A program made the translations under genes and the position numbers. A DNA stretch of 64,000 bases. Origin: Candidatus Liberimonas magnetica (GTDB lineage Bacteria; Elusimicrobiota; Endomicrobiia; Endomicrobiales; JAFGIL01). The notes under the pieces were generated by a model that was not told the DNA's origin, searched no databases, and saw nothing but the letters and a program-made list of their open reading frames with translations. The stretch covers positions 1 to 64,000 of the forward strand of contig JAJAPY010000001.1 of assembly GCA_020523885.1 (NCBI GenBank), in the 5' to 3' direction. Shown here in pieces: positions 23,641 through 27,457 of this stretch (position 1 is the first letter of the stretch; every line of letters begins with the position of its first letter).

Positions 23641-23820
23641 GCGTGATTGCGATATCACGCTTTTTTCTTTTTGTTGGGTGCATCCCCGCACTTGTCATTG
23701 CGAGTGTCAGCGAAGCAATCTCGTTTTCTAATATTTGTTACGGCAAGATTGCCGCGCCCTTTGGGCTCGCAATGACAACAGTGGTAAAATGGGTTTACAA
23801 GTGCGGGAATGCACCCCTTT
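23641..23820. repeat. Nested palindrome, 'TTGCGAG' family, copy 2
   Basis: The core 23693-23777 (TGTCATTGCGAG to CTCGCAATGACA) is nested in a second pair of arms, GGGTGCATCCCCGCACTTG at 23676-23694 and its near-complement at 23799-23817. A small hairpin GCGTGATTGC-GATATCACGC precedes it at 23641-23660. This fills the gap before the LexA-like regulator. Confidence 0.88.
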
Positions 23821-23832
23821 TTGTCGTGACGC

Positions 23833-23886
23833 TTGACAAATTAAATTAGAGTATGTATAATCATAGTGTATAATAGGTGTATAACT
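23833..23886 (+). promoter_or_regulatory. Promoter and possible autoregulatory operator of the S24 regulator
   Basis: A textbook promoter: TTGACA at 23833-23838, a 17-base spacer and TATAAT at 23856-23861. The word TGTATAA occurs three times (starting near 23855, 23868 and 23878), overlapping the -10 box and leader. That is the expected place for an operator bound by the LexA-like product. Confidence 0.75.
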
Positions 23887-24510
23887 ATGGACAATATTGT
23901 TTTAACAGAAAAAGAAAAGGGAGCACTTCGTTCAATAAGAAGCTTCTTATTGAATAACGGACGCATGCCGTCAGTCCGTGAGCTAATGAATTATATGGAT
24001 TATAAATACCCTCGTTCTGTTTCATTGCTCTTTGAACAACTTACAAAAAAGGGTATTTTGAAACGAAAACCAGATGGCAAGGTCATGCTCGCAAACAATA
24101 ATGACAAAAAAGAAGTTAATGCTCAGACTGTAAATATTCCCTTGCTTGGTTCTGCTCCCTGCGGAACTCCAAACTTTGCCGAAGAAAATATTGAGGCAGT
24201 ATATCCTGTATCTGTTAAACTTGCACCGCCCCCGTACAAATATTTTCTTTTGAGAGCAAAAGGCGATTCAATGAATGAAAAGAGTATTGATGATGGTGAT
24301 TTACTTTTAGTTCGGCAGCAACAAACTGCAAAAAATGGCGATTGCGTGGTTGCTCTTATAGATGGCGAATCAACAATAAAAGAATTTCACAAAACTGATA
24401 ATGCAATTATCCTGAAACCCCGGTCGAAAAATGACAAACATAAAGCGATAATTTTAACGAGAGATTTACAGGTTCAGGGAGTTGTTGTAACGACGATTAA
24501 AGGTTTGTGA
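23887..24510 (+). CDS. LexA-like S24 family repressor/peptidase
   Basis: A 207-aa two-domain protein. Residues 1-70 form a winged-helix DNA-binding domain (LTEKEKGALRSIRSF, MPSVRELMNYM). Residues ~80-200 form an S24 peptidase domain with autocleavage site Cys92-Gly93 (GSAPCGTP), Ser128 (GDSMNE) and Lys165 (STIKEF) as the catalytic pair. LexA usually cleaves Ala-Gly; Cys-Gly is a known alternative in this superfamily. I start at the ATG at 23887 rather than 23866, because the latter overlaps the promoter region. It heads a small unit followed by two tiny ORFs and a type II restriction-modification pair, so it may be a damage-responsive controller of that system rather than the chromosomal LexA. 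Confidence 0.85.
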   Translation: MDNIVLTEKEKGALRSIRSFLLNNGRMPSVRELMNYMDYKYPRSVSLLFEQLTKKGILKRKPDGKVMLANNNDKKEVNAQTVNIPLLGSAPCGTPNFAEENIEAVYPVSVKLAPPPYKYFLLRAKGDSMNEKSIDDGDLLLVRQQQTAKNGDCVVALIDGESTIKEFHKTDNAIILKPRSKNDKHKAIILTRDLQVQGVVVTTIKGL

Positions 24511-24520
24511 AGGAGAAATT

Positions 24521-24679
24521 ATGCCGCAAGATTATGAAGGTTTGGACAATTGGATTCTGAAAGATGGACATAAGATTGACCTTGAAAAATGGACTTCAGA
24601 TCCAAGACTTGGAACACTATCATTTAATCTCAAATCATTAGGCAAGGAGTTGAGGCAATGTTTAAGCATTTGCCATTAG
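24521..24679 (+). CDS. Small ORF (52 aa) after the S24 regulator
   Basis: Begins 10 bases after the regulator stop with an excellent ribosome binding site (AAGGAGAAATT). The product starts MPQDYEGLDNWILKDG and is mixed charged and soluble, with no recognised domain. Its spacing and ribosome binding site argue for translation with the regulator. It might be a remnant of a longer gene. Confidence 0.5.
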   Translation: MPQDYEGLDNWILKDGHKIDLEKWTSDPRLGTLSFNLKSLGKELRQCLSICH

Positions 24680-24750
24680 GTTACATAACCAAATTGGATA
24701 GAAGTCCTGTACATGAGGTAGTAAATATATTGAATCCTAAAAAGGATTAA
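24658..24750 (+). CDS. Small ORF (30 aa) overlapping the preceding small ORF
   Basis: An ATG at 24658 with AAGGAG 8 bases upstream encodes a 30-residue peptide beginning MFKHLPLGYITK. It overlaps the 52-aa ORF in another frame, so one of the two may be spurious, or a single frameshifted gene may underlie both. The last codons coincide with a small AATCCT-AAAA-AGGATT hairpin. Confidence 0.35.
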   Translation: MFKHLPLGYITKLDRSPVHEVVNILNPKKD

Positions 24751-24831
24751 TCAGACAAACGTAGAATTTTATTTTGTTGTAAGGAAGAATTAAATATAAT
24801 ATAATTATAATAAATAGAGTGGTGAAAATAT

Positions 24832-26532
24832 ATGAAGCTTAATGATGTTATTAGCCTTGGGGTAGAACAAAAAAAAATGCGAACAACTATTACACTTGAT
24901 AAATTCTCTCATCAACCATATGTTCTGTCACGAGGCATAACAAAGGGAACTAATCTGGGATTGATAGCTTATGCCGAACGCATAGCGGAAGATTATTTAA
25001 ATAAGTCTTCTGCAAATGAAAGAAAATCAAAAGGGCAGTTTTTTACACCTCGGCAAGTCAGCTTGTTCATGGCCAGTTTGTTGAATATAGATAAGCAAAA
25101 GTTCAGTGTGTTAGATCCTGGAGCCGGGACAGGTATGCTCAGCGCTGCTGTCTGCGAAAGTATCCTGTCTTCCAGAAAGCAGATTGATTTCTCATTGGAT
25201 GCATATGAGACTGATTCAGAAGTGATTCCGCTGCTTGAAAATGTCCTTCATAAATGTCAGACTGTCCTTAGAGAAAATGGTCATAAATTCAAATATAGAA
25301 TTATTGCAAAAGATTTTATTTTGGATAACTCTCACCGGATAAAAACACAGCTTGATTTTGGAGAGAGAGAAACTTCATTATCTTATGATTATATAATTTC
25401 CAATCCTCCATATTATAAACTCAATAAAAACTCACCACAAACCCTTCTTTTAAATGAAATTGTGTCAGGTCAACCCAATATCTATACCTTTTTTATGACA
25501 TTGTCCCTTGATATGCTAAAGTCGGATGGAAAAATGATGTTTATCACTCCGAGAAGTTTTTGCTCAGGGTTATACTTCAAGCCTTTCAGGAAATGGTTGT
25601 TACAGCACGGGCAGATAACAAATATTCACATGTTTGAATCACGAAGTAATGTTTTTGGTAATGGCACTGTTTTGCAGGAAAGTATTATAACCGGAATAAT
25701 GCCCAAAAAGAATGAGGTTGAAAGCAATAAAGTAACAATCAGCACAAGTCAGGATGGCTCATTTCATAATCTGAAGAAGGTTGATATTGACTATCAAGAT
25801 ATTTTACATCAGATAAATGGTCAATTAATGATAAAGGTTCCAGTAACAAAGACAGATGTCAAAGTTCAGCATATAGTTAATTCATGGGAATATACATTAA
25901 AAGATTTTGGAATGAAAGTTTCGACAGGTCCGGTAGTTTCTTTCAGGGCTGAAAAATATTTATCTACTGAATTTATTGATGAAAATAAAACTGTCCCGCT
26001 TTTATGGATGCATAATATTCAAAACATGAATATTGTCTGGCCCATAGAAAAGAAGAAAAGAGGGCTTGCTATAAAATTAGAAAAAGGTACGGCTCCTGTT
26101 TTGGTTCCGGTAAAAAACTATGTTCTTGTCAAAAGGTTCAGTTCAAAGGAACAAAAAAGAAGATTGTATGCCGGGGTGCTATTAAAATCAAAATTCAAGT
26201 ATGATAAAGTGGGAATTGAAAATCACCTTAATTATATTTATAGATATCACGATATTCTCTCAACGGATGAGGTTTACGGAGTTGCGGGTATTCTAAACTC
26301 ATCTTTGATGGACATGTTTTTCAGGATGCTTAACGGTAGTACTCAAGTTAATGCTGTTGATATAGATAATTTGCCCCTGCCTTCTCTTGAAAAGATCAAG
26401 GAATTAGGGAAGACTATCATGGCAAGGAAACCTTCTATCGGGATAGAATTAGACAAAGTGATTATTGACGTTTTGGGAATAGATAATGATATTCTTCTGG
26501 AATTAAACGGAGGCAATGACGTAAATGAGTAA
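24832..26532 (+). CDS. Type II N6-adenine DNA methyltransferase (PstI/BsuBI-type)
   Basis: A 566-aa gamma-type adenine methyltransferase. Motif X-like SKGQFFTP comes first, then SAM-binding motif I DPGAGTG, then catalytic motif IV SNPPYY, followed by a C-terminal region expected to recognise the target (VYGVAGILNSSLMDMFFR near the end). It would methylate adenine in the site cut by the partner endonuclease. By family that is probably CTGCAG, but the sequence does not prove specificity. Its stop overlaps the endonuclease start by 8 bases. Codon use looks more AT-rich than the housekeeping neighbours, consistent with horizontal acquisition. Confidence 0.9.
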   Translation: MKLNDVISLGVEQKKMRTTITLDKFSHQPYVLSRGITKGTNLGLIAYAERIAEDYLNKSSANERKSKGQFFTPRQVSLFMASLLNIDKQKFSVLDPGAGTGMLSAAVCESILSSRKQIDFSLDAYETDSEVIPLLENVLHKCQTVLRENGHKFKYRIIAKDFILDNSHRIKTQLDFGERETSLSYDYIISNPPYYKLNKNSPQTLLLNEIVSGQPNIYTFFMTLSLDMLKSDGKMMFITPRSFCSGLYFKPFRKWLLQHGQITNIHMFESRSNVFGNGTVLQESIITGIMPKKNEVESNKVTISTSQDGSFHNLKKVDIDYQDILHQINGQLMIKVPVTKTDVKVQHIVNSWEYTLKDFGMKVSTGPVVSFRAEKYLSTEFIDENKTVPLLWMHNIQNMNIVWPIEKKKRGLAIKLEKGTAPVLVPVKNYVLVKRFSSKEQKRRLYAGVLLKSKFKYDKVGIENHLNYIYRYHDILSTDEVYGVAGILNSSLMDMFFRMLNGSTQVNAVDIDNLPLPSLEKIKELGKTIMARKPSIGIELDKVIIDVLGIDNDILLELNGGNDVNE

Positions 26533-27457
26533 AATAAAACAGGGCTTGGACATTTTGATAAAAATGGGAATTCCCAGAGCGCAGCAAAATGAGCGATCGT
26601 CTTTGACTTTGTTAGCTGTACTGAATATAAAAGAGAGAAGCCCGTGGTCAAGTGCGAAGAAACGATTAATTAGAATTCATGACATTTTAGGGTTTATTGA
26701 ATATAATTATAAAAAGAAGTATGCCGAGAATACCCGAGAAACCATAAGGAGACAAACCTTACAGCAGCTTGAACAGGCGGGAATCGTTGAAAGAAATTCT
26801 GATGATCCATCAAGACTAACCAACAGTCCCAACACAGTCTATAATATAACCAATGAAGCTCTGGAAGCGATACGAAAATACAATGATCCTTTATTTGAAA
26901 GAGCTCTTCATAGGTTTATTTCGGAAAAAGGACGGCTTATTGACAAGTATGATAGACGGAAAGCACAAAATCAAATAAAATTGGTTGTTCCGGATGGAAA
27001 GACTATCAATTTTTCTCCGGGGGAACACAACGAGCTGCAGATAAAAATAATCAAGCAACTGTTGCCGCGCTTTTGTGTGAATGCCGAACTTGTATATGTG
27101 GGTGATACAGCAAATAAACTACTTTTTATTAAAGATGAATTACTTAAGGATTTGAATGTCCCAATAACAAACCACGATAAACTGCCTGATATTGTTCTTT
27201 ATGATCGAGCCAAGAAACATTTATTTCTGATCGAGGCTGTAACATCACATGGTCCTATATCTCCCAAAAGACATGTAGAGCTGGAAAAAATATTAAAGGA
27301 TTGCAAAACCGTTAAGATATACATAAGTGCATTCTTGAGCTCTAGGGAATTCAAAAGACACTTTGATAATATCGCATGGGAAACGGAAGTCTGGATTGCA
27401 GAAAATCCTGACCATATGATTCACTTTAACGGACCTAACTTTTTTACTGCCTACTAA
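26525..27457 (+). CDS. BsuBI/PstI family type II restriction endonuclease
   Basis: A 310-aa endonuclease. The N-terminal ~130 residues are a winged-helix-like specificity region. The C-terminal nuclease domain carries the family signature: HNELQIKIIKQLLPRF, LVYVGDTANK, then KLPDIVLYD and LIEAVTSHGPI, whose Asp, Glu and following residues form the PD-(D/E)xK-type site. Family members cut CTGCAG leaving 3' overhangs. The gene overlaps the methyltransferase by 8 bases, ensuring methylase is made first. It stops one base from the stop of the convergent barrel gene, with no terminator visible in between. The system looks intact. Confidence 0.93.
   Translation: MSKIKQGLDILIKMGIPRAQQNERSSLTLLAVLNIKERSPWSSAKKRLIRIHDILGFIEYNYKKKYAENTRETIRRQTLQQLEQAGIVERNSDDPSRLTNSPNTVYNITNEALEAIRKYNDPLFERALHRFISEKGRLIDKYDRRKAQNQIKLVVPDGKTINFSPGEHNELQIKIIKQLLPRFCVNAELVYVGDTANKLLFIKDELLKDLNVPITNHDKLPDIVLYDRAKKHLFLIEAVTSHGPISPKRHVELEKILKDCKTVKIYISAFLSSREFKRHFDNIAWETEVWIAENPDHMIHFNGPNFFTAY

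Follow-up and report, generated by a model that had tools for sequence, protein, structure and literature searches.

The subject of this report is a restriction-modification (R-M) operon of the BsuBI/PstI type in the first 64,000 nucleotides of contig JAJAPY010000001.1 of Candidatus Liberimonas magnetica (assembly GCA_020523885.1; this whole stretch is referred to as the window, and coordinates are counted from its first letter), which is headed by a gene for a LexA-type regulator of the S24 peptidase family. The operon is probably under the control of a portable LexA-type promoter-operator-repressor module that is derepressed through RecA when DNA is damaged, a module that would serve as a general damage switch for defence cassettes. 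A wider proposal, for which the odds seem slightly better than even, is that LexA-type repressors with a Cys-Gly cleavage site and TGTATA operators, found across phyla, form a fourth kind of immune-operon regulator: a travelling promoter-repressor module that carries R-M, cyclic-oligonucleotide-based antiphage signalling system (CBASS), Bub-like or OLD-like genes as interchangeable cargo, is at times fused to a methyltransferase, and couples its cargo to RecA-sensed DNA damage. The link between the regulator and DNA damage would follow from its catalytic residues and its family.

The regulator and its promoter

The original prediction, made from the letters of the window, described a complete LexA-fold regulator with a strong promoter of its own and TGTATAA repeats, upstream of an intact methyltransferase and endonuclease, and all of these elements were recovered. 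By profile and alignment, the regulator (P0001, 207 aa; 23887..24510, + strand) is of the LexA type, complete and with its catalytic residues intact. It scores 154.2 bits against TIGR00498 (lexA), above the equivalog cut-off of 110.95, 94 bits against PF00717 (S24 peptidase), and 32.4 bits (cut-off 23.7) against PF01726, the winged-helix DNA-binding domain at the N terminus of LexA. Pfam and NCBIfam assign it LexA and S24 domains only, and nothing of the WYL, metallopeptidase or kinase kinds. The ATG at 23887 is the preferred start, and the resulting 207 aa agree with the numbering of the predicted cleavage site as Cys92-Gly93 and of the catalytic pair as Ser128 and Lys165, while an alternative GTG at 23866 falls within the operator repeats. 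In an alignment of 19 relatives, G93, S128 and K165 are invariant (19/19) and the cleavage position is Cys or Ala in a ratio of 18:1. The closest solved structure by sequence is the LexA of Thermotoga maritima (PDB 3k2z, E = 8e-25). A fold search with an AlphaFold2 model of moderate confidence matched LexA domain by domain; the model (pLDDT 78, pTM 0.56) backs the individual domains but not the linker and cleavage loop, where confidence is low.

The sigma-70 promoter of the regulator, TTGACA-N17-TATAAT at 23833..23861 (+), agrees with the consensus at 12/12 positions and is kept in a paralogue on contig 24. Three TGTATAA repeats (23854-23860, 23867-23873 and 23878-23884) make up a putative operator at 23854..23884 (+) that overlaps the -10 box and ends 2 bp 5' of the ATG. 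Comparison with the paralogue, whose product is 89% identical, shows DNA homology from the -35 box to the regulator stop codon; the copied unit is the promoter and regulator, without cargo, and behind the copy on contig 24 lies another R-M cassette, which encodes an N6_Mtase/TaqI_C protein of 568 aa and an N6_N4_Mtase protein of 272 aa. The 55-bp promoter-operator region (23832-23886) is identical at 54/55 positions in the two copies, as against 69% when the regulator genes are compared at third codon positions (P = 4e-8; P = 0.002 if the rate of the whole open reading frame, ORF, is the reference), and the operator is therefore under constraint.

Other LexAs and the extent of the regulon

The window genome (3.39 Mb, 98% complete) encodes four good S24 proteins, which are the window regulator, its contig 24 paralogue, and two LexAs that are less closely related, one at C1:290 kb and one on C8; recA is present in one copy (C1:329903). 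The C1 LexA groups in the tree with the single LexA-like protein of a relative from the same family (G001), apart from the window group. The possibility that the window regulator is the only LexA of its genome was rejected, two further LexAs being present, and the window regulator is not the SOS LexA of the cell. The original prediction had reckoned with two outcomes that would count against it, a regulator that was the sole genomic LexA and a lack of co-occurrence in relatives, and neither holds.

The tandem TGTATAAN{3,6}TGTATAA occurs at only two promoters in the 3.39-Mb genome, those of the window regulator and the contig 24 paralogue, and the reversed pattern, used as a control, gave 0 matches in the whole genome. 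Single TGTATAA motifs are at chance level in the window (15 seen, 11.6 expected). It had been suggested that TGTATAA operators might lie upstream of the methyltransferase, but none was found directly 5' of that gene in the window, and the operators instead cover the regulator's own promoter. The tandem is likewise absent before recA. A relaxed operator pattern gave four extra single sites in the genome, not above the reversed-pattern control, and a wider regulon defined in this way was rejected. Because the tandem is confined to two promoters and the relaxed scan stays at the control level, the regulon is likely local.

Relatives and their cargo

A scan of 84,980 species genomes, together with two viral-contig matches, gave about 44 relatives of roughly 37-60% identity from Omnitrophota, Elusimicrobiota, Zixibacteria, Ignavibacteria, Bacteroidota, Acidobacteria, Goldbacteria, Calditrichota, Verrucomicrobiota and candidate phyla. 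With contig-end and duplicate loci excluded, 42 loci were assessable, the window and its paralogue among them. Cargo domains were checked protein by protein for most loci and otherwise taken from tallies, with the calls for L082, L084, L088, L102, L103, L106 and L148 made from tallies, similarity or sequence reading. A defence cassette follows the regulator in about 33/42 loci: DNA methyltransferase or R-M genes account for 18, CBASS for 12, a multiubiquitin-ThiF (Bub-like) operon for 2 and an OLD-like ATPase for 1; in five loci the cargo is other or unknown. The remaining four head SOS genes, namely umuC-dnaE (L075, L076), imuA-imuB-dnaE2 (L083) and recA (L095), and, as these are classic targets of damage regulators, they support the reading of the module as a damage switch.

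The domains tallied in the cargo are N6_N4_Mtase (8), D12 (6), SMODS (5), C5 methylase (3), SAVED (3), DpnI (2) and DpnII (2). In the top list for genes that lie upstream of these regulators, by contrast, D12 and C5 methylase appear at most once each and SMODS not at all. Among 36 lower-identity LexAs used as a control, 31 have no co-directional gene of at least 100 aa within 250 bp, and the only clear operon behind the rest is that of L112, itself CBASS by sequence reading. Cargo also differs behind similar regulators. Three that are 82-85% identical (L071, L073 and L088) head three different R-M cassettes, unlike R-M cargo is again found within the sets L070/L074/L086 and L093/L094/L096, and the regulators of L105 (methyltransferase) and L108 (CBASS) are 71% identical. 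Since the same group of regulators stands before various R-M types, CBASS, Bub-like, OLD-like and mutagenesis genes, we infer a general damage switch that has been acquired and swapped by defence cassettes. Annotated plasmids and phages searched with the regulator returned LexA-level similarity only, about 31-36% identity among the matches listed.

Two marks accompany the group. Of 42 members, 40 have a Cys-Gly cleavage site, as against Ala-Gly in the housekeeping LexAs tested; Cys-Gly is found also in the CBASS-linked L112 protein and the BsuBI-linked protein of G087. At least two TGTATA motifs lie within 60 bp of the start in 15/41 members versus 0/35 controls (shuffles mean 0.17, maximum 2), spaced 10-13 bp apart and with the last copy mostly 7-9 bp 5' of the ATG. 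In addition, regulator and methyltransferase domains occur in single proteins: LexA_DNA_bind, S24 and D12 beside BsuBI/PstI genes in G007 (L054:4413-6104, -), LexA_DNA_bind, S24 and N6_N4 in G002 (L067:5344-6942, +), and N6_N4 with S24 in a Wolfebacterium (L107:9200-10396, +). The G007 and G002 fusions sit on the housekeeping side of the regulator tree, whose deep branches are only moderately supported, and S24 regulators have thus probably been recruited to R-M systems more than once.

Some individual loci deserve mention. A small DUF2188 protein is often found between or near regulator and defence cargo (L101:10611-10832, L084:3491-3733, L097:3104-3346 and, in L058, just after 6291; assigned by Pfam match in L101 and by likeness elsewhere), a slot that is occupied in the window by unrelated small ORFs. 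In a Goldbacterium (L095:9851-11559), the gene directly 5' of recA encodes an S24 domain whose partner is an excisionase-like helix-turn-helix rather than the LexA domain. Behind the regulator at L086:10630-11565 come what is left of a Dam-type methyltransferase (50 aa) and then a DpnI-type gene, which looks as though one cargo had replaced another in situ. At L062:3233-5801 (G003) a regulator relative adjoins comM, which seems to be truncated where it meets a serine recombinase, and a further R-M cassette follows. Large unknown proteins are encoded in one regulator-headed operon (L081:3652-12128), and a metallo-beta-lactamase-fold protein with others in a second (L104:10625-13821); both are candidate undescribed defence systems.

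The R-M genes and their surroundings

The cargo of the window regulator consists of an N6-adenine DNA methyltransferase (P0002, 566 aa; 24832..26532, +), which matches PF07669 (Eco57I) and PF02384 (N6_Mtase) and scores 414 bits against PADLOC MTase_II, and a BsuBI/PstI-type restriction endonuclease (P0003, 310 aa; 26525..27457, +), which scores 201 bits against PF06616, 152 bits against PF17728 and 337 bits against PADLOC REase_II. The two genes overlap by 8 bp, and an endonuclease with helix-turn-helix and nuclease domains that adjoins an N6 methyltransferase identifies a type II R-M system of the BsuBI/PstI kind. Between regulator and methyltransferase lie an ORF of 52 aa from the ORF list (24521..24679, +), which matches no family, and one of 30 aa read from the sequence (about 24658..24750, +), which overlaps the first in a different frame; the two may be one frameshifted gene, and no relatives of either were found among the loci compared. 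All of these genes are co-directional with the regulator, and a pattern scan of the + strand found no terminator-like site between regulator and endonuclease.

Upstream, the same kind of scan picked out a weak terminator-like hairpin just 5' of the regulator promoter (23801..23814, +), which possibly insulates that promoter from the upstream gene. An imperfect palindromic element directly 5' of the promoter (23676-23816; 20-nt arms, 95% complementary, 101 nt apart) contains the 14-mer GCGAAGCAATCTCG, and because further copies of this 14-mer occur in the window at 920, 43162 and 54096 (0.03 expected), the element is probably a dispersed repeat resembling a miniature inverted-repeat transposable element.

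The pairing of this regulator with BsuBI/PstI genes, whose conservation in other genomes had been put forward as a check, was upheld in part. A link to R-M genes does recur in relatives, but it is not specific to BsuBI/PstI systems and the cargo is defence genes generally. Among 11 BsuBI/PstI loci above the cut-off in the phylum of the window, Elusimicrobiota, an S24 regulator lies directly upstream in three, those of the window, G087 (with a 4-bp gap) and G007 (as a fusion), and the three regulators belong to different S24 lineages; a conserved pairing was rejected on these grounds.

Alternative explanations

Several observations weigh against control of the R-M genes by a damage-responsive module. 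The window operators are direct repeats, whereas LexA typically has inverted repeats; a LexA-type inverted repeat was looked for by eye in the window operator and not seen, and a perfect palindrome, TGTATACAATTGTATACA, is present in the Omnitrophota relatives L070, L074 and L086. The distance from regulator to methyltransferase is 321 bp, and a weaker promoter-like site at 24777-24805 (10/12) could alone drive the R-M genes. Eight of the 11 BsuBI/PstI loci in the phylum show no S24 regulator (one of them ends at a contig end), and the BsuBI/PstI system therefore does not need one. Lastly, a LexA-like protein that is independent of RecA, IrvR, is described in the accessible part of PMC7101444, and for this reason a timer that does not sense damage is the main rival. 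Here, the LexA-like protein would act in the manner of a C protein, setting the timing and relative amounts of the methyltransferase and the endonuclease on entry into a new host, with RecA-triggered self-cleavage of minor importance. Operators over the regulator's own promoter fit such autoregulation, and R-M systems often need a timer of this sort, according to the accessible part of PMC13373217. A timer is nevertheless unlikely, as the cleavage site and catalytic pair are kept among the aligned relatives, and the group also heads SOS genes, CBASS and other systems that have no modification enzyme to time.

The remaining explanations carry less weight. Mobile-element-like genes on the paralogue's contig, and recombinases near some relatives (L062 and two upstream-side genes), might point to a repressor of phage or element type whose target is a mobile element, the R-M genes being carried along; this is improbable, given that the genes directly behind the regulators are defence genes in varied hosts and contexts with no common phage genes, that the operator tandem occurs at no other place in the genome, and that methyltransferase fusions exist. 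An ordinary SOS LexA, with a wide regulon and with R-M genes behind it by coincidence, would account for the score above the equivalog cut-off and for the relatives that head recA, umuC-dnaE or imuA-imuB-dnaE2. It is very improbable in view of the two other LexAs, one of which groups with the sole LexA found in a relative at family level, the lack of the tandem elsewhere in the genome, including at recA, and the repeated association with defence. The least credible explanation is chance, a LexA gene and R-M genes side by side within a defence island, even though defence genes do cluster and the BsuBI/PstI link is a minority case, for the enrichment is confined to the downstream, co-directional side, distinguishes the group from control LexAs, almost none of which show it, and extends to fusions.

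Proposed mechanism and its consequences

The reading that we prefer, a portable promoter-operator-repressor module at the head of the R-M operon, can be put as a sequence of events. To judge from the position of the operator, the regulator would bind the tandem TGTATAA repeats over its own promoter and repress itself, and, with transcription reading through into the co-directional genes, the methyltransferase and endonuclease would be repressed too. Damage could come from phage attack, or from the endonuclease cutting under-methylated host DNA. If the regulator follows the mechanism of the LexA family, RecA filaments would then provoke cleavage at Cys92-Gly93 by Ser128 and Lys165, and the whole operon would be derepressed. 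Such a response would boost the system upon phage attack, and it could rescue a host whose under-methylated DNA is being cut because methyltransferase and endonuclease would rise together.

R-M systems are usually viewed as constitutive or as timed by C proteins. Were the proposal true, DNA damage would induce restriction and other suicidal defences by way of the cell's own RecA, with a safety loop for occasions when the endonuclease cuts its host. As the module stands before R-M and abortive systems alike in different phyla, a Cys-Gly LexA with a TGTATA tandem would then be a simple genomic mark for defences that respond to damage, and new systems might be recognised by it among the unknown cargo.

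Comparison with known systems

The window regulator resembles the LexA SOS repressor (TIGR00498; PDB 3k2z, 1jhf) in domain order, in its DNA-binding and S24 domains, in the Ser/Lys pair and self-cleavage site, and in having operators over its own promoter. It differs in a Cys-Gly rather than Ala-Gly site, in its local operators only, in heading an R-M operon, and in the presence of other LexAs in the genome. UmuD and umuDC-type operons share the S24 domain, and some members of the group head polymerase genes; the UmuD cleavage site is Cys-Gly too, but UmuD lacks a DNA-binding domain and does not act as a repressor, whereas the window regulator has such a domain. With the C proteins of type II systems there is in common an autoregulated regulator gene placed before the R-M genes, yet C proteins are of a short helix-turn-helix type that lacks a peptidase domain, and the window regulator has an S24 domain. 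As for BsuBI/PstI R-M systems (PF06616, PF17728), the endonuclease and methyltransferase families are the same, and most members in the phylum lack a LexA-like regulator.

No description of a LexA/S24-type regulator of R-M or CBASS was found in the openly accessible literature, the subscription literature being mostly outside this search. The accessible part of PMC13373217 names CapW/BrxR, CapH+CapP and CapK+CapS as damage-responsive regulators of immune operons, and no S24 protein is mentioned in that part. As far as the accessible parts of PMC13373217, PMC9122588 and PMC9122601 go, these are repressors tied to DNA damage, a tie that was shown there and would hold here by the mechanism of the LexA family. 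In its Pfam and NCBIfam domains the window regulator shows no homology to any of these three families. They use a WYL domain or a separate protease or kinase, in contrast to a single self-cleaving LexA-type protein that would use RecA, and the commonest cargo of the window regulator group is R-M cassettes. The comparison suggests a LexA-family repressor in the role of immune-operon regulator, as a portable DNA-damage switch for bacterial immunity.

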